NCBI RefSeq assembly: GCF_001911425.1
Contig: NZ_MPPL01000001.1
Coordinates: forward strand, 4,107,243-4,171,242
Length of the DNA: 64,000 nucleotides
Reading direction: 5' to 3'
Origin: Mucilaginibacter polytrichastri
GTDB lineage: Bacteria > Bacteroidota > Bacteroidia > Sphingobacteriales > Sphingobacteriaceae
Part shown: positions 967-40,406 of the stretch, in pieces
Layout of the letters: the number at the start of each line of letters is the position of its first letter
Position numbering within the stretch: the stretch's first letter is position 1
Notes under the pieces: model-generated
Told to the model about the DNA's origin: nothing
Database searches by the model: none
What the model saw: the letters and a program-made list of their open reading frames with translations, nothing else
Translations under genes and position numbers: made by a program

Positions 967-2580
967 ATGATCGAAATATCACCATTTGACACGTTTGCCA
1001 AAGGCACAATAACGTCAAGTAAAGTACGTGGTACAAACTGTGTTATTTACACAAGAGTTAGCAGCAGGGAGCAAGCTGATAATTTAAGCCTTGGCACTCA
1101 GCTGAAAGGATGTAATCAATATGCCGAAAGGTTAAAATATAAAGTCTTAGCGCAATTTGGAGGAACTTATGAAAGTGCGGAAAATGATGAACGAAAGGAA
1201 TTCATCGCAATGCTGGCCTTTGTAAAAAAGGCTAAAGAAAAAGTGTCTTACATATTAGTTTACAGCTTGGAGCGCTTTTCCAGGAATGACAATTCCATTT
1301 GGTTAAGCGGTGAGTTGAGAAAGTTAGGAATAGAGATCGTATCAGTCACTCAGCCAATTGATACCTCCAGTGCTTCAGGACAGATGCAACAAAAAATGTT
1401 GTTTTTATTCGGTGAATTTGATAATCAGCTCAGGAAACAAAAATGCACCGCAGGAATAAAGGAAATGCTGATGCGTGGGGACTGGCCAACGGCTGCACCA
1501 CTTGGTTTTGATATTGTACGCAGCAATGGCGTTCGAAAAATTATCGTTAACCAGAAAGGCAAACTCTTAAGGCATGCTTTCGAATGGAAATCACAATACA
1601 ATTTATCCAATGAAGCCATTCGCGAGAAACTTGGTGAAAAGGGCCTGAAATTAAACCATCAAAGAATATCGGAGATTTTTAGAAATCCATTCTATTGCGG
1701 TTTGATGGCTCACAATATGCTGGAAGGACGCGTGGTTGATGGCAATCAGGAAAAATTGGTTTCCAAAGCAACCTTTTTAAAAGTCAATGGTATTTTAGAC
1801 CAAAATGCTCATGGGTACTCATTAAAGGAAGAAAATGACGCTATCCCCTTAAAAAGATTTACTAAATGTGCTGAATGCGGAAAACCCCTCACAGGCTACC
1901 TGATGCGCAAAAAGAATATCCATTATTATAAATGTAAAACGCGGGGCTGTAACACCAACAAGAACGCCAAATCTCTTAACGAAACATTTCATAATTTACT
2001 AAACAGTTTCACGCTAAATTTAGATCAAGATTTTTTACATCTCATCCGACAACAGGCCGTGACAACTTTTAACCAACTGTTTAAAGGAGACGAAGAGGCT
2101 TACGTTTCTTTGGCAAACCAATATAACGAATTGAAGAAAAAGATAGATCGTCTTGAAGAACGTTATGTTGAAGAAGAAATTAATAGTGACTTATATAACA
2201 AGTATTCGGAAAAATACCTATCGGAAAAAGGCGAATTGGAAGACAAGATTATGAAAGCCTCAAAAAAAAGTTCGAACCTTGGAAATTGTATAGATATTTC
2301 TTTGGAAATAGCCTCAGAAATAGGTAAAAAGTGGGTTTTAAGCGATTACGTAGGTAAGCAAAAGATCCAGACATTAGTGTTTCCTGATGGCATTACTTTT
2401 AGCAAGAAAAAAGAAGAAGTTCGAACCCCGCGAATAAATTTTGTGTTTTTGTATCTTGCTTATCTTCAGCAACTTATAGGCAATAAAAAAAGCGGCATAC
2501 CAGAATTAAATCTGGATTTTGCCGCTTTCGCCTGTTTGGTAGCGGGGAGCAGGATCGAACTGCCGACCTTAGGGTTATGA
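967..2580 (+). CDS. large serine recombinase
   Basis: Site-specific recombinase of the large serine family. The resolvase domain (residues about 24-170) contains YTRVSSREQ with the catalytic serine near residue 32. It is followed by a recombinase domain (about 175-290), a zinc ribbon with CAEC and CKTRGC near 300-335, and a coiled coil near 375-435. The last 14 codons or so are the antisense of the tRNA-Met gene at 2537-2613, so the apparent C-terminus is shaped by the attachment site and the final residues may not matter for function. The protein would integrate or excise the element to the left. Family assignment is secure; whether the tRNA is its own target is inferred. Confidence 0.9.
   Translation: MIEISPFDTFAKGTITSSKVRGTNCVIYTRVSSREQADNLSLGTQLKGCNQYAERLKYKVLAQFGGTYESAENDERKEFIAMLAFVKKAKEKVSYILVYSLERFSRNDNSIWLSGELRKLGIEIVSVTQPIDTSSASGQMQQKMLFLFGEFDNQLRKQKCTAGIKEMLMRGDWPTAAPLGFDIVRSNGVRKIIVNQKGKLLRHAFEWKSQYNLSNEAIREKLGEKGLKLNHQRISEIFRNPFYCGLMAHNMLEGRVVDGNQEKLVSKATFLKVNGILDQNAHGYSLKEENDAIPLKRFTKCAECGKPLTGYLMRKKNIHYYKCKTRGCNTNKNAKSLNETFHNLLNSFTLNLDQDFLHLIRQQAVTTFNQLFKGDEEAYVSLANQYNELKKKIDRLEERYVEEEINSDLYNKYSEKYLSEKGELEDKIMKASKKSSNLGNCIDISLEIASEIGKKWVLSDYVGKQKIQTLVFPDGITFSKKKEEVRTPRINFVFLYLAYLQQLIGNKKSGIPELNLDFAAFACLVAGSRIELPTLGL
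2484..2527 (-). terminator. terminator downstream of tRNA-Met
   Basis: Read on the minus strand, stem AGCGGCA/TGCCGCT (2526-2520 with 2497-2491) encloses a second small stem CCAGA/TCTGG and is followed by a T-run (2490-2485). It lies 10 nt after the tRNA 3' end and is embedded in the 3' end of the serine recombinase frame. Confidence 0.7.
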
Positions 2581-2613
2581 ATCCTACGCTCTAACCATCT
2601 GAGCTACCCCGCC
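2537..2613 (-). tRNA. tRNA-Met (anticodon CAT)
   Basis: A complete cloverleaf reads on the minus strand. Acceptor GGCGGGG pairs with CCCCGCT (one G-U), the D stem is GCTC/GAGC, the anticodon loop is TTCATAA, the T loop is TTCGATC and the CCA is encoded. The anticodon stem TAGGA/CCCTA has an A-C mismatch at its base. The 5' half (2575-2613) is duplicated at 40248-40286, so this gene is chimeric: the 5' half came with, or was regenerated by, the integrated element, and the 3' half belongs to the left side. The gene could be elongator Met or Ile2 with lysidine; the GGCGGGG acceptor fits elongator Met. Confidence 0.9.
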
Positions 2614-2997: not shown

Positions 2998-4032
2998 TTA
3001 AACGGAATATGATTCATCTCGCCGTTTATATTCCTTCTCATATTGTCTATTTTGATGCACACACGTAAATACTCGTGTGATTAACTTAAAACGGATGGCG
3101 TTTATAATAAGCATCTTAGGTTTACCTTCGGCTACTTTACGTTCATAATAGGCTTTAATATCCTTATCATAGCGCATAGCTCCCACTGCACAGATATGCA
3201 ATAATGATTTCATTTTCTTATTGGCTATGTGTGATACCCGTGCCTTTTTAATAACTGTGCCCGATTCATCTTTAAATGGTGCTACACCTGCATAACAAGC
3301 GAATTTTTTGGCTGTGGTAATGCCCCGAAATTCATTCGTGCGAATGATCATCTGCACCGCGGTTACAACACCAATACTTGTTATAGAGGTTATTATATCT
3401 AATAAATTTTTAAGATTTTCGTCACTTGCGATTAATTCCAGAATGCGCATTTCAATTCCTTCAATATCTTGCCTAATACTCGTCATACTACGCTTACAGA
3501 CTTCAACATTCTCTTTAGATTCTTTCTTAGATAAAAAATCCTGTTGCTCTTTTAATGGGGCTTTTAAAGCAAGTTGTATTGACATGAGCCGAAAGCGAAT
3601 GGTGGATAAATAGGCAACTTGCTGGACAATCTTGCGCTTAGATTGCCAAAGCCTGAGTTCTTCCCTATGTCGGTAAGCATATTGTGCAATTCGTATCGCA
3701 TCAATTTTATCATGCTTGCCTCGAATATTTCCCAAGGAATTACGTATTTGAAGGGCATTTTCTTGAACTATGTTAGCTTTAAATTTTTTAAGTGCATTGA
3801 TTAATATGTTACAATATATGCCTGTATTTTCCATGCAAAACACAGCTTTGCTCATCATAAATTTAGGCTGCTTTTTTATCTCTTCAATTACATTTTTAAT
3901 AGCAGTGAGTTCGTTTGCAATCTCTTTATGAAATATAAATGTTTGACCGTAATGAATTGCGAAATCAAGTTCGTTTCGAGACACGTCGATGCCGATAAAG
4001 TATGTGAACTTTTTAGGTTTACTAACATTCAT
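2998..4032 (-). CDS. IS110-family transposase (copy 1)
   Basis: A 344-residue DEDD transposase. The RuvC-like N-terminal domain has YFIGIDVSRNELDF (catalytic Asp about 16), MENTGIY and KHDKIDAIR. The C-terminal Transposase_20 domain has SITSIGVVTAVQMI and ends in the ESG motif that carries the IS110 catalytic serine. The length is normal for the family. The non-coding DNA just upstream (4082-4190) forms a 16-bp hairpin with a 77-nt loop, where IS110-type bridge RNA is expected. It is related to, but clearly diverged from, the transposase at 30373-31398. The enzyme would catalyse RNA-guided recombination at its own ends. Confidence 0.9.
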   Translation of the reverse strand: MNVSKPKKFTYFIGIDVSRNELDFAIHYGQTFIFHKEIANELTAIKNVIEEIKKQPKFMMSKAVFCMENTGIYCNILINALKKFKANIVQENALQIRNSLGNIRGKHDKIDAIRIAQYAYRHREELRLWQSKRKIVQQVAYLSTIRFRLMSIQLALKAPLKEQQDFLSKKESKENVEVCKRSMTSIRQDIEGIEMRILELIASDENLKNLLDIITSITSIGVVTAVQMIIRTNEFRGITTAKKFACYAGVAPFKDESGTVIKKARVSHIANKKMKSLLHICAVGAMRYDKDIKAYYERKVAEGKPKMLIINAIRFKLITRVFTCVHQNRQYEKEYKRRDESYSV

Positions 4033-4081
4033 ACAATTTGTAGATTAGGATAAAACCATATAGCTATATCATAGAAGGCTA

Positions 4082-4190
4082 TTAATAATGACTATGCAGT
4101 AAACTCATGAGTACCTATTTCTGGGGATAAGTCCGTTCTTAGAAAGGGGCGCAAGTCAACTAACGAAAATCAAAGCATAGTCATTATTAA
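4082..4190 (-). ncRNA. candidate bridge-RNA hairpin of IS110 copy 1
   Basis: TTAATAATGACTATGC (4082-4097) is perfectly complementary to 4175-4190, enclosing 77 nt. It ends about 50 nt upstream of the transposase start on the same strand. The minus-strand loop contains GGACTTATCCCCAGAAATAG, which matches the GACTTAATCGCC...AGAGGCATAG core of the A-type hairpins upstream of the second IS110 transposase. IS110 elements are known to encode bridge RNAs in a non-coding end; the assignment here is by position and structure only. Confidence 0.55.
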
Positions 4191-4402
4191 AAGCTGGATT
4201 TCAAATTAAACTGATAACACTAAGCCAATTTCTATTAATTATGCCAGATGCAAGTTCAAAGGCATATCACAATTTACGACGATAATTTTCCTTAAACGAA
4301 TTTAATTAAGCATATCGAAATATCAATTCATACATAAGGTTCAAAATAATAAACCTATTCATATGAAAGATCATATTATAATTAACTACAGAAGTCTCAA
4401 TC

Positions 4403-7952: not shown

Positions 7953-8732
7953 CTAATTCATCGCCTGTATAACATCATTGATTGTTGCTCCGAGAGCTAA
8001 TACAAATGATACAAATTCGGAAATTCCAAAGTAAAGACCTAACGCTGCAATTACTGCGAAAAAAACATTAACAGCATCTTTAAGGGAAATCTGTTGTCCA
8101 TTATATAAACTTATAATGATATTAACAGCGGACGGAAAGCCTCCGGCGATAATACTGGCAACACCAAAACCGCTACCCAAATTTTCCAGAACTTCAATCC
8201 CCTCAGTAGCTAACTGAACACCACTGAAAGTGGTAGATTGTATGTCTGCACCCAAAGTAAAAGCAGAAAGAAAGACTTCTCCCGTTGATGGCGTTATCGT
8301 AGCTGAAACTGTAACTGTCGGTAATGTTGTATTCTGAACTGTACCATCATCACTGATTGTTACAACTTGACCATCATCTAAAGTGTATGTCCCTCCCTTT
8401 GGCAAAACATACTGGTTTCCATCCTGGTCAATGTAAACGATATCGCCACTGGTAATTCCTGTGCCAGGATTGTCGTCATCATCATCATCGTCGTCGTCAT
8501 CAGCTTGCCCATCATCTCCTTCACCGGCATCTCCATCTCCAGCATCTCCGTCACCATCTCCATCACCACCATCTCCTCCACCGCCGTCATCATCGCCGCC
8601 ATCGTCATCACAGCATCCGCCGTCGTCATCATCGCCATCAATGGCATCCGCTCTTGATGAGCATTGTCCGCAGACCGAATTAACCTTAGAACCTGTAGCC
8701 TCATTTAATTTTTTTAATTGTGGTTTGTTCAT
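7953..8732 (-). CDS. Asp/Gly-rich protein with hydrophobic C-terminus (putative toxin precursor)
   Basis: I chose the ATG at 8732, giving 259 residues; an upstream TTG at 8804 would add 24. The order is a leader-like N-terminus (MNKPQLKKLNEATGSKVN) with a CGQC, a low-complexity Asp/Gly run of about 65 residues containing a CC pair, a short beta-rich segment with repeated GGTYTLDDG-like motifs, and a final 75-residue hydrophobic region with two membrane-spanning stretches. No classical signal peptide is seen. The arrangement recalls peptide-toxin precursors whose hydrophobic C-terminal part is released. The neighbouring membrane gene at 7213 follows in the same operon. Function unproven. Confidence 0.55.
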   Translation of the reverse strand: MNKPQLKKLNEATGSKVNSVCGQCSSRADAIDGDDDDGGCCDDDGGDDDGGGGDGGDGDGDGDAGDGDAGEGDDGQADDDDDDDDDDNPGTGITSGDIVYIDQDGNQYVLPKGGTYTLDDGQVVTISDDGTVQNTTLPTVTVSATITPSTGEVFLSAFTLGADIQSTTFSGVQLATEGIEVLENLGSGFGVASIIAGGFPSAVNIIISLYNGQQISLKDAVNVFFAVIAALGLYFGISEFVSFVLALGATINDVIQAMN

Positions 8733-26074: not shown

Positions 26075-26383
26075 ATGATATCACTTATTTCTCCATCAAA
26101 AGCGCAAGCGAAAATTGCTGAAAATATTCGAGCAAGACGGTTATTCTTGGCATTAACCCAAGAAGGCTTGGCTGAACGGTCGGGCGTTCCCCTTGCGACC
26201 CTACGGAAATTTGAACAGAAAGGTTCAATTTCGCTGGAGTCCTTTTTGAAACTACTGATGGTCGTTGGTGGTATGGAAGAAACAATCGATGTACTGAAAC
26301 CGTCAAAGCCAATTTTCAAATCGATAGATGACGTGTTGAAAGACACAAATAACATTGCTCGAAAAAGAGGGAGTATTAAATGA
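26075..26383 (+). CDS. hipB: HipB-like XRE antitoxin
   Basis: 102 residues. The XRE helix-turn-helix (about 14-70) reads IRARRLFLALTQEGLAERSG, then VPLATLRKFEQKGSISLESF. The gene overlaps hipA by 4 bp, so the proteins are made in a coupled fashion. It would bind the operon palindrome and neutralise HipA. The chance of an ordinary repressor is low given the HipA partner. Confidence 0.85.
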   Translation: MISLISPSKAQAKIAENIRARRLFLALTQEGLAERSGVPLATLRKFEQKGSISLESFLKLLMVVGGMEETIDVLKPSKPIFKSIDDVLKDTNNIARKRGSIK

Positions 26384-27612
26384 GCCAGCCCATAACAGAA
26401 GTAAAAGTTGGCGTAAATTTCGGTTCAGAAACTCAGCCTGTAGGGCGGTTGGCCATGCGCGACCGCATCATTTATTTTGAATATAACGATGCCTTCATCC
26501 AGAAGGACATTGAAATTTCTCCCATCCGATTGCCATTGCAACAAAATGTTATCGAATTACCTCAACGTCCATTTGACGGGCTGGCCGGTGTTTTCAGCGA
26601 TAGTTTGCCTGATGGCTGGGGTCGATTGCTTTTTGATCGCCTAATAAGATCACAAGGCATTTTACCTGCCAGCATAACGCCTTTGGATCGTTTGGCCCAT
26701 GTTGGCTTATCGGGCATGGGCGCACTGGTGTATGAACCGGATAACAGTCCATTAGATAACCAGGAATTTATTGGCCTGGATCACCTGGCCTCGCAGACGG
26801 AAGAAGTTTTACAGGGCAGTTCTGAAGAAGTTTTAAAAGAATTATTGGCCTTGAATGGATCATCTGCCGGTGCCCGCCCCAAAGCCCTTATTGTTTTGAG
26901 CGATGACCGTAAGGAGATTGCTTATGGCACAAAAAAACTTGATGAAGGGTTTGAACCCTGGCTGGTCAAGTTTTCCAATTCCCAAGACGGTCAGGATGCC
27001 GGTGCAATTGAATACGTTTATGCTTTGATGGCAAAAGAAGCAGGTTTGGTGATGCCGGACGTACACCTGTTTTCATCGCAAAAAAGCGCTGGCTATTTTG
27101 CGGTTAAACGTTTTGACAGAGACGGTAAAAAACGACTACACACGCATACAGCAAGTGGATTGTTGCATAGCGATTTCAGAACCCCTTCCCAGGATTACGA
27201 AGACTTGCTCACTTTGACTGGCGCTCTTACAAAAGATACTCGCGAAATAGAGAAAATGTATCGCCTCGCGGTTTTCAATGTATTGGCGCATAACCGGGAT
27301 GATCACGCTAAAAATTTCAGTTTTCTAATGGATGAAAACGGAACATGGAAATTAGCCCCTGCATACGATCTTACTTTTTCCAGCGGCCCCAATGGTGAAC
27401 AAAGCACAATGGTCATGGGTGAAGGCAGAAATCCGAAGATCAGCCATTTGATAAAACTTGGCCAGGAAGCAAAGCTATCTAAAAACCTGATAGATGAAAT
27501 TATTGATCAAACAATGAGTTCTTTGGGTGATTGGAAAGATTTAGCCAAAAACCATCATGTAACGGAAGCAAACATTGACCTTATTGCTAAGGCCATTAAT
27601 AATTTTAAATAG
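26380..27612 (+). CDS. hipA: HipA-like Ser/Thr kinase toxin
   Basis: 410 residues, a full-length HipA. The N-terminal domain has the DGLAGVFSDSLPDGWGRLL motif near 65-85. The kinase part has GSSAGARPKA (regulatory serine loop) near 158-168, the catalytic HNRDDHAKNF near 303 and the metal-binding PAYDLT near 328. Such kinases phosphorylate a translation factor or glutamyl-tRNA synthetase and arrest growth; the target here is unknown. The GC content is higher than the adjacent cargo, suggesting separate acquisition with the P4-type integrase. Confidence 0.93.
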   Translation: MSQPITEVKVGVNFGSETQPVGRLAMRDRIIYFEYNDAFIQKDIEISPIRLPLQQNVIELPQRPFDGLAGVFSDSLPDGWGRLLFDRLIRSQGILPASITPLDRLAHVGLSGMGALVYEPDNSPLDNQEFIGLDHLASQTEEVLQGSSEEVLKELLALNGSSAGARPKALIVLSDDRKEIAYGTKKLDEGFEPWLVKFSNSQDGQDAGAIEYVYALMAKEAGLVMPDVHLFSSQKSAGYFAVKRFDRDGKKRLHTHTASGLLHSDFRTPSQDYEDLLTLTGALTKDTREIEKMYRLAVFNVLAHNRDDHAKNFSFLMDENGTWKLAPAYDLTFSSGPNGEQSTMVMGEGRNPKISHLIKLGQEAKLSKNLIDEIIDQTMSSLGDWKDLAKNHHVTEANIDLIAKAINNFK

Positions 27613-29355: not shown

Positions 29356-29393
29356 AACAAAGCCATCTCGCACTCGATGCTTGGGGCTTCGTT
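29356..29393 (-). terminator. terminator of the Mrr-like gene
   Basis: On the minus strand AACGAAGCC (29393-29385) pairs with GGCTTTGTT (29364-29356), with one G-U pair, and encloses CATCGAGTGCGA, which resembles the loop core GCAGCGAGTG of the other terminators in the window. The stop codon of the minus-strand gene is at its edge. Confidence 0.55.
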
Positions 29394-30327
29394 AATGCTT
29401 CTCTGAATAATTATTAACCCAACCAATAATATCGTTACAGTCTCGTAAATCCAAAAGGTTCGGCATGTTTTGCATTTGTTCTCGCAGAGCGTCAGGTGAA
29501 AAGTATGATGTGGTGAATATAATACCCTTATTAGCTCTATTAGTATTTATTACATGACTAAACTCCCTTATTATTCCTACACCTACTTTTCTTTCAGGAG
29601 AGTATTTTTTGCATTCCACTAAAAACTTTAAGGGGAAGCCAGAAATATTTTGGAGTGCAATAATATCAAGACCGCCATCTCGTGTTTGCTGGGTTAATTG
29701 CACTTCAAAATTATGATGCCTCAATAATTCGGCGATCATTTTTTCAAATGCTCTTGGCTGAAGCTTATAAAGCTGCGTGTGATCTCTATAAATATCAGAT
29801 ATAATCCTTCTTATATTCGTTACCTCATCCAGAAGAATTATTTTTTGCTGCATCGTATTTGTCTCTGGATCAGCCATGATCTCATAAGACGTTAGTTGAA
29901 GTTCGTCGTCTTCCTCGAAATGAATATCATATTTAGAAAAGTCTATATTTCTTATAAACTCAATCGTTGGCGAAAGAAGAGTGTGAGAGTCAAGGATGCC
30001 ACTTAAATAATCGACCTGTTTAGCCATCCTTAAATTAAAGTAGTTAACCTGATTAATTAATGTCAGTTGCTGGCCAATCCCAGGGATTTTTTTTAGAATG
30101 GATTGATATTCTAAAATATTTTGAACGGAAGGACTTTGTAAATCGTCAATTCTCTTCCTTGCTTCGCGAATGGCTTTTAGTCCAGGCGAATCCAGTTGAC
30201 GAAGTATCTTATGAACGGAAAATTGTAGCTTATGCGATGAAATGAAATTTCTAAAAGTATCTTCCACGTTTGAGTTTATTACGCTTAATCCAAAAGTATG
30301 ATTAGAAAATATTCCCATTGGGAACAT
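29392..30327 (-). CDS. Mrr-like restriction endonuclease
   Basis: 311 residues. The C-terminal 130 residues form a PD-(D/E)XK Mrr-type domain: FEKMIAELLRHHNFEVQLTQ, RDGGLDIIA, then FLVECKKYSPERKVGVGIIR, with the catalytic D...E-x-K in order. The first 170 residues are a helical region that may bind DNA or a partner and contain no recognised domain. It lies directly after the P4-type integrase (convergent) and next to the second IS110 copy. It likely acts as a restriction or abortive-infection nuclease. Confidence 0.85.
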   Translation of the reverse strand: MFPMGIFSNHTFGLSVINSNVEDTFRNFISSHKLQFSVHKILRQLDSPGLKAIREARKRIDDLQSPSVQNILEYQSILKKIPGIGQQLTLINQVNYFNLRMAKQVDYLSGILDSHTLLSPTIEFIRNIDFSKYDIHFEEDDELQLTSYEIMADPETNTMQQKIILLDEVTNIRRIISDIYRDHTQLYKLQPRAFEKMIAELLRHHNFEVQLTQQTRDGGLDIIALQNISGFPLKFLVECKKYSPERKVGVGIIREFSHVINTNRANKGIIFTTSYFSPDALREQMQNMPNLLDLRDCNDIIGWVNNYSEKH

Positions 30328-30355
30328 ATAAGCCCTAAGTTAAACAAAAGAACAC

Positions 30356-30370
30356 GTTTAGCGGCTAAAC
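30356..30370. repeat. 15-bp palindrome after IS110 transposase copy 2
   Basis: GTTTAGCGGCTAAAC is a perfect palindrome around a central base, 3 bp after the transposase stop on its 3' side. On the minus strand it is followed by a T-rich stretch, so it may be the transposase terminator or part of the IS end. Confidence 0.5.
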
Positions 30371-30372
30371 TT

Positions 30373-31398
30373 CTACATTGCTTGTCTTTGATAATTTCGT
30401 TCAAAGCATCTATCCTGATTAAGGCAAGCAAATATTCTTAAAACTATTTTATTGCGCACCGCATTTAGAACGGCCATTTTGGGCTTGCCGTCGGTCTTGG
30501 TTTTTCTTTCGTAGTACGCTTTTAGCTCCGGGTCATGCCTAACAGCACTTAACGCACACGTATGCAATAAGGCCTTTACCCGCTTATTAGCCATGTTTGA
30601 GATTTTGGCCTTACCTTCAATTAAGCCGGAATCCCGTTTAAACGGAGCAACGCCTGCATAACAGGCGAACTTTTTAGGATTGCGAATATCCTGGAACTCG
30701 TTTGTTGTTATAATTATCTGTAATGCGGTTACAGGGCCTACGCTTGGCACTGAAGTAATAATTCCGAACATGCGTTTTAAATTCGTATCAGAGTTGATAA
30801 GTTCAAATATAAATGCATCTATGGCGGCAAAATCCGCCAATAAAGCATCGGAACTGTTTTTGATTAATTTTTTACTTTGAGCAACGATTTTCTTTTGGAC
30901 AAAATTAGTATCTTCTTTCAAGGGGGTAACCAAGGCTTTTTCCAATGTCATTATTCTGTTTCTCAAAGTGGAAAGATGCGCCAACTGTTGCACGATTGGT
31001 CGCTTTGGTTTCCAGATATTTAGCTCATCCCGATTTTTATACAAATATTGAGCGATGCGTATGGCATCAATCTTATCGTATTTTCCACGGATATTGCCGA
31101 GGGAGTTTCTAATATGCAGCGCATTCTCATTAACAATATTTGTTTTTACCCTTTTCAGGCAGTTCAGAAGATGGTTCCCGTAAATGCCGGTATTTTCCAA
31201 TCCAAACACCGCCCTGCTCATGACAAACTTCGGTAGTTTTTTTAAACTATCGATTATGGCGTTTATTTCGGAGCTTTCATTTTTTATTTCGCGATGAAAT
31301 AAGAATTTATTTCCTTGCATGACTGCAAAATCAAGTTCGTTGCGAGAAATGTCTATTCCAATAAAGTAAGTGTATTTTTTAGCTTTTGAAACTTCCAT
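30373..31398 (-). CDS. IS110-family transposase (copy 2)
   Basis: 341 residues, DEDD type. YFIGIDISRNELDF, LENTGIYG and KYDKIDAIR form the RuvC-like part; SVPSVGPVTALQIIITTNEF and a downstream DSG motif form the Transposase_20 domain with its serine. It resembles copy 1 over its length but differs at many positions, so the two are separate acquisitions rather than a recent duplication. Upstream on the same strand lies a tandem array of eight hairpins (31418-32079), where IS110 elements normally have one bridge RNA. Confidence 0.9.
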   Translation of the reverse strand: MEVSKAKKYTYFIGIDISRNELDFAVMQGNKFLFHREIKNESSEINAIIDSLKKLPKFVMSRAVFGLENTGIYGNHLLNCLKRVKTNIVNENALHIRNSLGNIRGKYDKIDAIRIAQYLYKNRDELNIWKPKRPIVQQLAHLSTLRNRIMTLEKALVTPLKEDTNFVQKKIVAQSKKLIKNSSDALLADFAAIDAFIFELINSDTNLKRMFGIITSVPSVGPVTALQIIITTNEFQDIRNPKKFACYAGVAPFKRDSGLIEGKAKISNMANKRVKALLHTCALSAVRHDPELKAYYERKTKTDGKPKMAVLNAVRNKIVLRIFACLNQDRCFERNYQRQAM

Positions 31399-31417
31399 AG
31401 ATATTAATTTAACTTTT

Positions 31418-32079
31418 AAGCGGCAGGGCTTGTATCATTCGTTAGGTATTTTTCCTTCGACGTAGATTAAGTCTCCTTGCCACTTATAAGCCGTTTTAAT
31501 ATTTAAACAGCAAGGATTTCTTCTAACTATGGTTCTTAATCCAGAGGGACAATAATGCGTCTTGCTGTTATGTCTTCGTATTATTAAGTTTTTAAAATGA
31601 CAAGGCTTATATCATAAGATAAGCAATAGGCTTTTGAAGGCAAATAAGTCCCCTTGTCATTTGTATCTAAAAAAACAGCAAGGATTTTTTCCAACTATGG
31701 TTCTTAATCCAGAAGGACAGTAATACGCCTTGCTGTTATATTTTTAGGTATCCGGCAACTTTGTAAATGACAAGGCTTGAATCATACGATAGGCACTATG
31801 CCTCTGACGGCGATTAAGTCCCCTTGTCATTTATAAAGTGTTTAATTACAGCAAGGATTGTTTCAAGCTATGGCTCCTAATCCAGAGGGACAATAATGCG
31901 CCTTACTGTATATTTTCTTTCAAACTACATTGTAATGACAAGGCTTAAATCATAAGATAAGCACTATGCCTCTGACGGCGATTAAGTCTCCTTGTCATTA
32001 TAAAGTATATAAGTAACAGCAAGGATTGTTTCTAACTATGGTTCCTATAGTCCCGAAGGACAATAATGCGCCTTGCTGT
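31418..32079 (-). ncRNA. tandem array of eight alternating hairpins upstream of IS110 copy 2
   Basis: Two hairpin types alternate with a period of about 170 nt. A-type (stem AATGACAAGG/CCTTGTCATT): 31418-31485 (diverged), 31596-31661, 31765-31832, 31933-32000. B-type (stem ACAGCAAGG/CCTTGCTGT): 31506-31569, 31674-31737, 31847-31910, 32016-32079. Several details favour transcription from the transposase strand: in the third B the stem mismatch is a G-U pair only on that strand, and in the fourth B GTCCTTCGGGAC forms a stable UUCG tetraloop only on that strand. The A core matches the single hairpin of IS110 copy 1. IS110 bridge RNAs carry two binding loops, so each B-A pair may be one such RNA. 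This is inference. Confidence 0.65.
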
Positions 32080-32102
32080 ATGTTGTTATTTGTTTGTGAA
32101 AC

Positions 32103-32152
32103 AAAGCCCCTTCGCAATCGCTGCTTGGGGGCTTAACCTAAACCTATCACAA
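32103..32152 (-). terminator. terminator with conserved lead-in box
   Basis: On the minus strand TTGTGATAGGTTTAGGTT (one base shorter than the other copies) precedes stem AAGCCCC/GGGGCTT with loop core GCAGCGATTGC. It ends the gene at 32178. Confidence 0.75.
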
Positions 32153-32177
32153 TATTCTATCATGCAATAACATGCGA

Positions 32178-33041
32178 TTACTTGGGAATGAAAGTAAACT
32201 TGGTGTCGCTTATATCGGTTAGACCGAACCGCTGCCCTATTTCAAGATATCCAGATTTCGCATAGGACGGAACGATAAACCACATTTCCGTTGGCGTAAC
32301 CTTAATTGGCTTTTCCTGCTTATCTAAGAGATTGTTAAAACTTGCCCACATTTCATCTTGGTTAGTGAACTGTACACCCGTGATTTTTACTGTGTCGCCT
32401 GTTTTTATAGTCTTAGGTGAAAAATCCCGCATGGACATTGCAAGAGTTAAAATCTTATCACTGATTACTGATTTACCGTTAAGGGTCAAAGTAACTTTAC
32501 CGCCTTGTGCATATCTTGGCACCATAGCGCCCACTACGGAAGAAGATGGGCCAATATAATTTGCTTTAACCGGAGTAGTGCCGCCGAAGGACATACTAAT
32601 CTTATTAGTGTCTGTTCCAAAACCATCCGCATACATATTGAACTGATGACCAAGCTGGACTTGGTCATCGAAACCCACAATTCTCAAATCTTCCAATAAA
32701 GCGGTAAAATCAGTTGTGCTAACGGCTGCATTACCATTAACCGTCACCCTTATTTTGCCGCTCGGCGTGCCTAAATTAGTTTGAATAACAATTGTGGTAG
32801 GCGACACTGAAACTAATGTAAAGTAAGGCGTACTATTAACGGCCACAGCCACGGCTGATGCATCGCTGCCAAAACCTGTGCCTGTAATCGTAATTTTTGC
32901 ACCGGGCTGCGCAGATTTCGGGGTAAAATCAGTTATCGTTACCGCATCCTTTGGTGATACGTATACGGCCTGCCCACCATTATCTTTTTTACAGGCCGAG
33001 AAAAGAAAAATAACCAATGATAATATATATATCTGTTTCAT
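32178..33041 (-). CDS. IPT/TIG-domain lipoprotein
   Basis: 287 residues. A lipobox LFSAC lies at the end of the signal peptide (Cys about 17), then three immunoglobulin-like IPT/TIG repeats beginning ITDFTPKSAQPGAKITITGT, LRIVGFDDQVQLGHQFNMYA and MRDFSPKTIKTGDTVKITGV. It would be anchored in the outer or inner membrane and face outward, binding carbohydrate or protein. It heads downstream in a minus-strand block of secreted proteins (32178-34282) that is cargo of the element. Confidence 0.8.
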   Translation of the reverse strand: MKQIYILSLVIFLFSACKKDNGGQAVYVSPKDAVTITDFTPKSAQPGAKITITGTGFGSDASAVAVAVNSTPYFTLVSVSPTTIVIQTNLGTPSGKIRVTVNGNAAVSTTDFTALLEDLRIVGFDDQVQLGHQFNMYADGFGTDTNKISMSFGGTTPVKANYIGPSSSVVGAMVPRYAQGGKVTLTLNGKSVISDKILTLAMSMRDFSPKTIKTGDTVKITGVQFTNQDEMWASFNNLLDKQEKPIKVTPTEMWFIVPSYAKSGYLEIGQRFGLTDISDTKFTFIPK

Positions 33042-38787: not shown

Positions 38788-40065
38788 TTAAAAATCAATC
38801 ACCGCCTCTAAAGCTTCGTCGGCCTTTTTGTTTGAGAAATTAGATTGATAGCCCATTGTTGTCAGCATACTTTCATGGCGATAAAGCTTTTGTAATACTT
38901 TCGGGTGTATTTCTTTTTCCTCGGCGAGTTGTGCAAATGCATGACGGGCCTTGTGCGGTGATGCGTTTTTATTAATGGCAAGCAATCCCATGACAATGCC
39001 CATATGTTCACCGAGCATTTTCGTTACAAAACTAATCCGCTTTCGCAGTTCAAAACGGTCTTCGAGATTATTAACTTCGTTAAGGTATGGGAATACAAGA
39101 TCATGGACATGGTTGTTATTTTTATATTCTTCAAGAATGGCCGCAATTACCGCAGGGGTTGCTAAAGAACCCGGTTCACCATTCTTTGACATCACATAGT
39201 AGAAACGCCCGTTTTGAAAATCCGACCACTTCAATAATAGCGCATCCGTGATACGCATCCCGGCAAAATAAAAACAGGTTAGCCATATATTACGACTATG
39301 GTGCAGATGCGTTTGGTATTTATCAAATTTATATTCTTTTAATTGGGTGATTTCTTCGGCCACCAGCCCGATTTTTTCCGTCTTGCCGAATTTGATAACT
39401 ATCTTTTCTTTGCCGCCAAACGGATAGGTATCATTCCCAATCAGCCCGGCGGTTTTAGCGCGGTTGTACATAGTGCGAATTACCAGTAAATGATTTGTAA
39501 CCGTGCGGTCACTTAATGGCTTATGCTCTTTATGATTTCTGTTGCGATCCATTCGCAGATATAATGTAAAGCGGCGTAGGAGTTCAACGGTAATATTAGC
39601 AAACGTAACTTGCTCCCCGGCAAATTCATAAAAGCGTTTCAGGCGGCTTTTATCGGTGTTATAAACATCGTAATTGCCCAGGCCTTTTTGTTCCGCAAGA
39701 TATTGATCGGCGACGTCTTTAAATAAAGGCAATTTTAGAGCTGGCGGCATAGGCACATCTACCACTGGCTTAGGCTTGATAGCATTAATAACGTCTTCTG
39801 CCGTATACGTTCTTTGGTCGGTTTCAAATTCGAGAATTTTTCCATTGATTTCAGAAAGCCGTTTTGACAAGAAGTTTGTCAGCCGTAGCGCATGTGGGTG
39901 CGCTTTTTTGACTTGCTGTTTTGTTGCATCCCATAATTCACGGGAAGCAAGGACGTTGCCTTCAAATAAATAAGCAGGAATGCCTTTTTGAGATACTTTA
40001 ATTCCGATGGGAAATTGACCGTTTTTGTCTAAACGGCTCCAAGTGATGATTTTTGCAGTGGCCAT
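38788..40065 (-). CDS. tyrosine integrase of the mobilizable element
   Basis: 425 residues, Bacteroidota type. The N-terminal arm-binding domain (about 1-90) has RLDKNGQFPIGIKVSQKG, followed by a SAM-like core-binding domain (about 110-200) and the catalytic domain with AGMRITDALLLKW (Arg), HKARHAFAQLA (His-x-x-Arg), LYRHESML (His) and GYQS (Tyr). The start codon lies 182 bp from the right repeat, the normal arrangement for the integrase that made the 40-bp att duplication. It reads into the element. Confidence 0.93.
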   Translation of the reverse strand: MATAKIITWSRLDKNGQFPIGIKVSQKGIPAYLFEGNVLASRELWDATKQQVKKAHPHALRLTNFLSKRLSEINGKILEFETDQRTYTAEDVINAIKPKPVVDVPMPPALKLPLFKDVADQYLAEQKGLGNYDVYNTDKSRLKRFYEFAGEQVTFANITVELLRRFTLYLRMDRNRNHKEHKPLSDRTVTNHLLVIRTMYNRAKTAGLIGNDTYPFGGKEKIVIKFGKTEKIGLVAEEITQLKEYKFDKYQTHLHHSRNIWLTCFYFAGMRITDALLLKWSDFQNGRFYYVMSKNGEPGSLATPAVIAAILEEYKNNNHVHDLVFPYLNEVNNLEDRFELRKRISFVTKMLGEHMGIVMGLLAINKNASPHKARHAFAQLAEEKEIHPKVLQKLYRHESMLTTMGYQSNFSNKKADEALEAVIDF

Positions 40066-40247
40066 GTGGAAACATTTTTAAGTAAAAATTTGTTTCCACG
40101 CCCCGTTCAAAGGTCGCGTTTTGTTAACGGAATTGTTAACGGTTTGGCTGGCTCAACCTGCGGTGTGATGGTGTCTTATGGGATATTATAACCGAAGCAA
40201 CATCTATTTTAGCCCATATCAGATCATATTGTGTCAAACTCGTAGGA

Positions 40248-40287
40248 TTATGAATCCTACGCTCTAACCATCTGAGCTACCCCGCCG
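40248..40287. repeat. attR direct repeat (tRNA-Met 5' half)
   Basis: Identical over 40 bases to 2575-2614. It contains only the 5' half of the tRNA on the minus strand. The bases that follow in the element (TCCTACGAG) continue the anticodon stem pairing but not the rest of the tRNA, so this copy cannot give a mature tRNA. Confidence 0.85.
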
Positions 40288-40406
40288 AGTGTATTGCAAG
40301 GTTTGCTATAATTACTGGCGTAACCTTGTTTATGGTTATTTAAGAGTTCGGGCCATTATGTTGATAACTAATCGCTCAACCAAGCCCCCTTTCTTAAAAA
40401 GGTTTG

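Follow-up and report, generated by a model that had tools for sequence, protein, structure and literature searches.

An IS110 recombinase gene and its upstream hairpins

The DNA analysed here is a stretch of 64,000 nucleotides from Mucilaginibacter polytrichastri (contig NZ_MPPL01000001.1, positions 4,107,243 to 4,171,242), referred to as the window. It carries on the minus strand the gene of an IS110-family recombinase and, directly 5' of this gene, an array of hairpins of two types, A and B, which are probably guide units of the recombinase. The array occupies 31413-32079 on the minus strand, in the order B4-A4-B3-A3-B2-A2-B1-A1, and its end (A1) lies 14 nt from the recombinase start codon on the same strand. 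The gene and the hairpins are as follows, with guide parts named according to the layout described below.

30373..31398, minus strand: IS110-family DEDD recombinase, 341 aa (Pfam, NCBIfam, alignment to IS621)
32016..32079, minus strand: hairpin B4, left guide TTGTCCT, core TC, right side TC-TAACTAT
31933..32000, minus strand: hairpin A4, left guide ATCGCCG, core TC, right side TC-ATAAGAT
31847..31910, minus strand: hairpin B3, left guide TTGTCCC, core TC, right side TC-AAGCTAT
31758..31839, minus strand: hairpin A3, left guide ATCGCCG, core TC, right side TC-ATACGAT; 18-bp stem
31674..31737, minus strand: hairpin B2, left guide CTGTCCT, core TC, right side TC-CAACTAT
31595..31662, minus strand: hairpin A2, left guide TTTGCCT, core TC, right side TC-ATAAGAT
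31506..31569, minus strand: hairpin B1, left guide TTGTCCC, core TC, right side TC-TAACTAT (guide parts by eye, parser without parse)
31413..31490, minus strand: hairpin A1, left guide ATCTACG, core TC, right side TC-ATTCGTT; most diverged of the array

The recombinase matched both IS110 domains of Pfam (DEDD_Tnp_IS110 and Transposase_20) and the NCBIfam model NF033542, 'IS110 family RNA-guided transposase' (153.6 bits, cut-off 140). Residues D16, E68, D108, D111 and S257 aligned with the catalytic residues of IS621 (structure 8wt6; a numbering offset of 2 in the PDB chain was inferred for this alignment). The only solved relatives found were IS621 (E 5e-11) and ISCro4 (8.5e-11), and no PADLOC model matched. 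Judged by these alignments, the window protein is an IS110-family recombinase that keeps the DEDD residues and the catalytic serine.

An earlier reading of the sequence alone had described eight hairpins at this locus, strictly alternating with a period of about 170 nt and directly 5' of the transposase start on its strand. This description was borne out. A stem-only finder returned exactly the eight array hairpins in 802 nt (mean 0.4, maximum 2 in 30 order-1 Markov resamplings), and finder and sequence placed them within a few bases of the positions given earlier. Successive A hairpins start 168-177 nt apart and successive B hairpins 168-173 nt apart, and Tandem Repeats Finder reported a repeat at 31506-32079 (period 168, 3.4 copies, 79% matches). 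The stem lengths of 9-11 bp claimed earlier hold for most hairpins, the exceptions being A3 (18 bp) and A1 (13 with one mismatch). The quoted motifs were likewise found: on the recombinase strand the B hairpins carry the interior motif ...CATTATTGTCC... and A4, A3 and A1 share GACTTAATC, from which A2 deviates.

Folding of each B-A unit on the minus strand, also envisaged in the sequence-only reading, gave z-scores against shuffles of -3.06, -2.37 and -2.48 for three units and -0.72 for B1-A1; for B1-A1 the folded stretch was 31421-31569, 149 nt only, without the outer 8 bases of A1. The plus strand folded as well (-3.52, -1.22, -3.58 and -1.60 for the same four units), so folding energy cannot tell the strand. 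Rfam gave no family near threshold on 30300-32300 (two matches, the best with E 0.12 and 21.8 bits against a gathering score of 80), and sigma-70-like sites were at the shuffled level (9 vs. 6.9, sd 2.7).

One layout is common to all eight window hairpins and to the hairpins of relatives. Each window hairpin has a 9-bp stem, a 2-nt linker, an NATTA/NCTTA box, a 7-nt left guide, TC and a small stem-loop, followed in the 3' half by a 7-nt right guide, GA, 6 nt and the stem (B1 by eye). Counted with a 9-bp stem, the hairpins measure 62-64 nt. Both loop sides read a TC/TC core in 8/8 window hairpins, with TC and GA kept throughout; other matching cores were AC/AC in hairpin K4 of the related locus L014 and TT/TT in H1 of L066. 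Because two MAFFT alignments mis-registered the stems, the analysis relied not on an RNA covariance model but on a hand-written parser (44 hairpins entered, 5 without parse) and on a motif counter, which was run with antisense and shuffled sequence as controls. Since the scoring of the parser favours TC and GA, its counts are no evidence for the core. Fairer evidence comes from 105 distinct loops, the window's own included, of stem-only hairpins beside related recombinases chosen without any motif: 41 had GA at exactly 8 nt from the end of the loop (between 2 and 13 at other offsets), 35 had TC at offsets 14-15, and 36 had [AC]TTA at offset 3. The count of stem covariation (97% paired; 38-46% when slid) comes from hairpins that had been selected by stem, and no proof is drawn from it.

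Guide-flank matches and arrays in related loci

Recombinases about 52-55% identical to that of the window occur beside a single unit in the same bacterial family (L007, L008, L028, L060, L070/71, L079-L084). Their hairpins are alike in layout to those of the window array. The unit consists of one variable hairpin and one conserved GTTTAAAC hairpin (seen in L008, L028, L070/71 and L079-L084). Two to four copies of such elements are present in three genomes (G027, G031 and G053), whereas the window array is single-copy in its own genome; element ends were taken from multiple copies in one genome and from conserved ends. The left guide of the first hairpin matches the left flank of the insertion (TTGTCATTTCC with its variants). 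On the other side, the flank that follows TC corresponds to the right guide read as reverse complement (GAGGAAT vs. GAGGAAC in L060, GAAGTAT vs. GAAGTTT in L028). The fit is imperfect, with 6-11 of 11 bases on the left and 2-7 of 7 on the right. Matches exceeded those of permuted pairings on both sides (left 117 vs. 93.6, p about 5e-5; right 59 vs. 45.0, p about 1e-4) in 12 rows that are related to each other, drawn from 16 of which the four left out repeat the same elements. When one row per guide set was kept (six rows), 2/720 permutations were as good; L071, which fits better on the right and worse on the left, was taken here, not L070. Guides and insertion flanks thus change together, and a hairpin of the window-type layout is therefore, by this comparison, the target-reading loop of the bridge RNA in the clade of these single-unit relatives.

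We consider it likely that the window array represents four tandem bridge-RNA units (B then A) of the adjoining downstream IS110 recombinase, that is, a multi-guide IS110 variant. Each hairpin would act as one DNA-reading loop. Within the internal loop, the 7 nt and TC of the 5' arm would base-pair to one strand of a DNA site and the right guide and GA of the 3' arm to the opposite strand, with the same TC core read by both arms. Target binding would fall to one hairpin type and donor binding to the other, and at the core the recombinase would join the two. We infer transcription and processing of the array, and likewise which hairpin type is the target loop and which the donor loop. Tandem copies would supply one enzyme with several guide pairs, and divergence of the guides between copies, as in some relatives, would make the array a multi-guide cassette. 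The sequence-only reading had suggested that a B-A pair could be one bridge-like RNA: the two-loop layout is present and hairpins of that layout in relatives read the flanks, but targets of the window guides were not found (see below).

Arrays recur beside related recombinases, the named relatives being Mucilaginibacter and Pedobacter. Of 63 recombinase sequences, 17 had no hairpin with at least two motifs, 23 had one, 13 two, 5 three and 3 four; the window had 8, and L048, which is the L069 locus, had 11. Over the whole set such hairpins numbered 95 sense, 39 antisense and 16 shuffled. The best 30 loci at most were taken per genome search, so these frequencies hold for the closest relatives and are no census. 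The set includes cut copies (L101 of L048, L103 of L046) and near-identical copies (L082-L084); the count is too low for arrays whose hairpins lack the motifs (L054, L012, L025), and L014 stands outside it, with its hairpins counted separately. Arrays 5' of the gene were found in L069 (12 alternating C/D hairpins, one of them missed by the motif count), L065 (5 hairpins), L014 (4 hairpins, two by eye) and, in another genus of the same family, L127 (four X hairpins with Y-like hairpins between, Y by eye) and L129 (four M hairpins with N-like hairpins between, N by eye). Arrays 3' of the gene were found in L054 (5 hairpins, alternating P-Q-P-Q-P), L062, L063 and L064. To place the labelled 5' arrays on the recombinase tree takes two changes or more, and the same holds for the 3' arrays; neither label was clustered beyond shuffles; in this tree the '3-prime array' label of L065 denotes the array of its downstream neighbour, L127 and L129 are absent, and one of the four hairpins counted in L016 is probably chance. 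The third hairpin of L076 and the B' hairpins of L065 seem to lie on the opposite strand. In L065 two tandem IS110 genes (65% and 68% identical to that of the window) have the array between them, and its B'-type hairpins carry TTGTCCTTC, as window B4 does, on the opposite strand.

Beyond these loci, no relative of the recombinase was found in viral contigs by a search reaching close relatives only. On plasmids there were 4 relatives (37-39% identity, E no worse than 1e-50); each has between one and three stem hairpins, and none has an array. In 149 genus genomes (3 candidates scored per genome), the array DNA had two matches besides the window. The match in G065 lies directly beside an IS110 gene; that in G064 spans 42 bases (E 7.6e-4) in a 3-kb stretch whose listed open reading frames (ORFs) are unlike IS110, and we take it for chance. 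With G064 read in this way, this search gave no case of the repeats away from an IS110 gene.

The hairpins might instead function at the DNA level or form the mRNA leader of the recombinase gene, in the role of recombination sites, attenuators or folded single strands, as the position of the array directly 5' of the gene and its folding on both strands would allow. We regard this as very improbable: arrays also occur 3' of the gene, and relatives have a hairpin of this layout whose guides agree with the flanks of the insertion. Moreover, hairpins with all three motifs numbered 42 on the sense strand vs. 4 on the antisense strand and 1 in one shuffle (130 kb). The sequence-only reading had also offered a reservoir of recombination sites, for which no support was found.

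Guides differ between units in some of these arrays. In the four X hairpins of L127, 10/10 left-guide columns were variable vs. 11/53 elsewhere (p 2.8e-6; only this X test was used, as the block test had included the last unit, which is without Y). Among the D units of L069 (5 of 6, D0 left out), guide difference was 0.60 and 0.65, whereas the box differed by 0.16 and the core by 0. Column tests gave p 0.004 for the left and 0.015 for the right guide; for the latter, two alternative ways of handling unit D3 gave 0.003 and 0.009. The C units of L069 keep the right guide and have a changed left guide (0.34, equal to their stem-loop). In the window A hairpins the trend was similar but not significant (left guide 0.36, 5' stem 0.11, stem-loop 0.34), so the window array looks like a younger or less diversified one. 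The earlier claim of several alternative guides for one recombinase thus stands in kind for L127 and L069, whereas the window units have similar guides. We infer the use of several units as alternative guides, most strongly for L127 and L069. More broadly, but with less than even confidence, we propose for Sphingobacteriaceae a clade of array-programmed IS110 recombinases. Their two-loop guides, interchangeable and set in tandem, would combine a constant scaffold with renewed guide sequences, and such a recombinase would be able to join several pairs of DNA sites. It would stand midway between an IS110 element with one guide and a guide array of the TIGR/CRISPR type.

Predicted DNA sites and genomic surroundings

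The DNA sites predicted for the window guides are TTGTCCTTCTAACTAT and ATCGCCGTCATAAGAT. Searches were strict, requiring 15-16 of 16 bases, and A1 was not covered. Several results weigh against the bridge-RNA interpretation. In the own genome the A pattern had 1 match (controls 2) and the B pattern 0 (controls 3); in the 149 genus genomes A had 5 (controls 5), all in or beside ORFs without visible link to IS110 (by eye), and B had 0 (control 1); the C sites of L069 had 8 matches in the whole of G028 (controls 6). No hybrid junctions were found at the array flanks. B1-A1 folded no better than shuffles, left and right cores agreed in only 25/39 parsed hairpins (in the parser's best register, with agreement on TC rewarded), and 3/4 X units of L127 are without TC in the left guide. 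Parts outside the guides vary too, namely the small stem-loop (0.48) and the 5' stem (0.38) of the L069 D units and the small stem-loop of the window, which varies as much as the guides (0.33-0.34). Variation of the window guides was not significantly higher than that of the rest (p 0.13 for A, 0.20 for B). The target negatives are weak because the searches were stricter than real flanks in relatives (down to 6/11 and 2/7) and left A1 uncovered. Matches within the window were no better than those of shuffled guides (best A2 with 14/16, also reached in 3/96 shuffles), and around L069 intact predicted sites, the only ones sought, were no commoner than at the shuffled level.

Neutral tandem duplication would account for some of these results. 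In that case a single bridge-RNA unit would have multiplied through slippage or unequal recombination, with one unit or none at work while the rest drift; the similar window units with guides no more variable than the rest, the weak folding of B1-A1, the divergence of A1 and the lack of targets in the own genome would fit. This is unlikely in our view, since TC and GA are kept in 8/8 window hairpins, the A1 stem is kept through two double changes relative to A2-A4 (one pair broken), and arrays recur beside other recombinases, two of them with box and core kept and guides changed.

The window holds the following further features, of which the last is the only local lead to an insertion junction.

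3019-4032, minus strand: second IS110 recombinase, 57% identical to the first, without array
26380-27612, plus strand: HipA-like protein, beside the recombinase
29392-30327, minus strand: Mrr-type nuclease (weak PADLOC matches), adjoining the recombinase
30206..30221, minus strand: right-junction lead TTTCCGT-TC-ATAAGAT, matching A4/A2 in 7/7 bases on the right side, within the Mrr-type ORF downstream

About 0.03 matches like the last are expected by chance in its 1-kb stretch, and the lead is weak. An empty site was sought through the Mrr-type gene; relatives align over its C-terminal part only, and consequently no element boundary was obtained.

A 52-nt direct repeat (96%) at 2570-2621 and 40243-40294, covering the 5' half of a tRNA-Met gene (2537-2613, minus strand), frames together with an integrase (38788-40065) a 37.7-kb stretch that holds both window IS110 genes and is probably an integrative island. 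Upstream of the second IS110 gene a 20-bp inverted repeat encloses 77 nt (region 4078-4194), and one guide-like hairpin lies at the 3' end of this gene. Short tandem repeats of the CATCTCCATCACCACC type occur at 8509-8636 (periods 15-39).

Like TIGR or CRISPR arrays, the array might also store guides for use against foreign DNA and not for element movement. Its place in a tRNA island that also codes for a HipA-like protein and an Mrr-type nuclease would suit such a role, as would the differences between guides in L069 and L127 and the missing excess of sites in the own genome. We consider this highly unlikely: the absence in the own genome equals chance expectation, and the protein keeps recombinase catalytic residues and matches no PADLOC model.

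In related genomes, clade IS110 genes lie directly after genes resembling enzymes for ribosomally synthesised and post-translationally modified peptides in L065/L095 (G031), L097/L098 (G028) and L099 (G039); these neighbours look like a LanB-like gene, or a small precursor-like ORF with a SPASM-like radical SAM gene. In L100/L101 (G028 3865000-3898000) the 12-hairpin array lies between two similar SusC/SusD-like operons (by eye), and the recombinase gene is followed at about 33 nt by one copy of a 1239-nt direct repeat (98%), which returns 10 kb on. The LanB-type neighbour of L065 and the SusC/D operons beside L069, both as judged by eye, make a role in rearranging host genes a testable idea. 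Related IS110 genes in opposite orientation form pairs at G057:C1:1886103-1891538 (3.4 kb apart) and G182:C1:1037727-1047626 (7.9 kb apart), possibly framing an invertible segment.

Comparison with known guide systems

Bridge recombinases of known IS110 elements have one guide RNA, and the seekRNA of IS1111/IS110 reportedly has a single guide region. In integron cassette arrays, gene cassettes lie between hairpin sites; the window array does not fit this pattern, as no listed ORF of at least 80 aa lies between its hairpins. No description of IS110 guide arrays was found in the open-licence literature, judged by titles and abstract openings, and PMC13174815, in the portion available, has no bearing on arrays.

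The closest likeness is to IS621, for which the sources are cited from excerpts. Both proteins are DEDD/Tnp recombinases with an aligned catalytic serine, and both the IS621 bridge RNA and the window array lie 5' of the gene (PMC11208160). Both RNAs, that of the window as predicted, have stem-loops with an internal loop, a left guide on the 5' side, a right guide on the 3' side and a shared core dinucleotide (PMC11208160, PMC11208158). The target-binding and donor-binding loops of IS621 measure 65 and 68 nt, with parts in the same order as in the window hairpins (PMC11208158). IS621 differs in its core (CT, compared to TC in the window) and in having one target loop and one donor loop, whereas the window has four hairpins of each type in alternation. 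In the single-unit relatives described above, a hairpin of this layout serves as target loop. The seekRNA systems of IS1111/IS110, as far as the excerpt of PMC11187229 goes, share with the window an RNA-guided DEDD transposase and a non-coding guide region.

In TIGR-Tas, according to the part of PMC12045711 consulted, arrayed two-spacer guide RNAs serve a Nop-domain protein that is structurally related to the RNA-binding part of IS110, and a kinship is proposed. The same part describes IS110 bridge RNAs as a single two-stem unit, one per element, where the window has four. TIGR-Tas arrays are processed into 36-nt RNAs (PMC12045711, same part). The window repeat is a pair of 62-64-nt hairpins. 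The effector of TIGR-Tas is the Nop-domain protein Tas, alone or fused to an HNH or RuvC nuclease; that of the window is a full IS110 recombinase (NF033542). Natural arrays of the kind proposed would show how bridge guides multiply and change, would offer multi-site programmable recombination from one enzyme, and would represent the form expected between IS110 guides and TIGR-type arrays.
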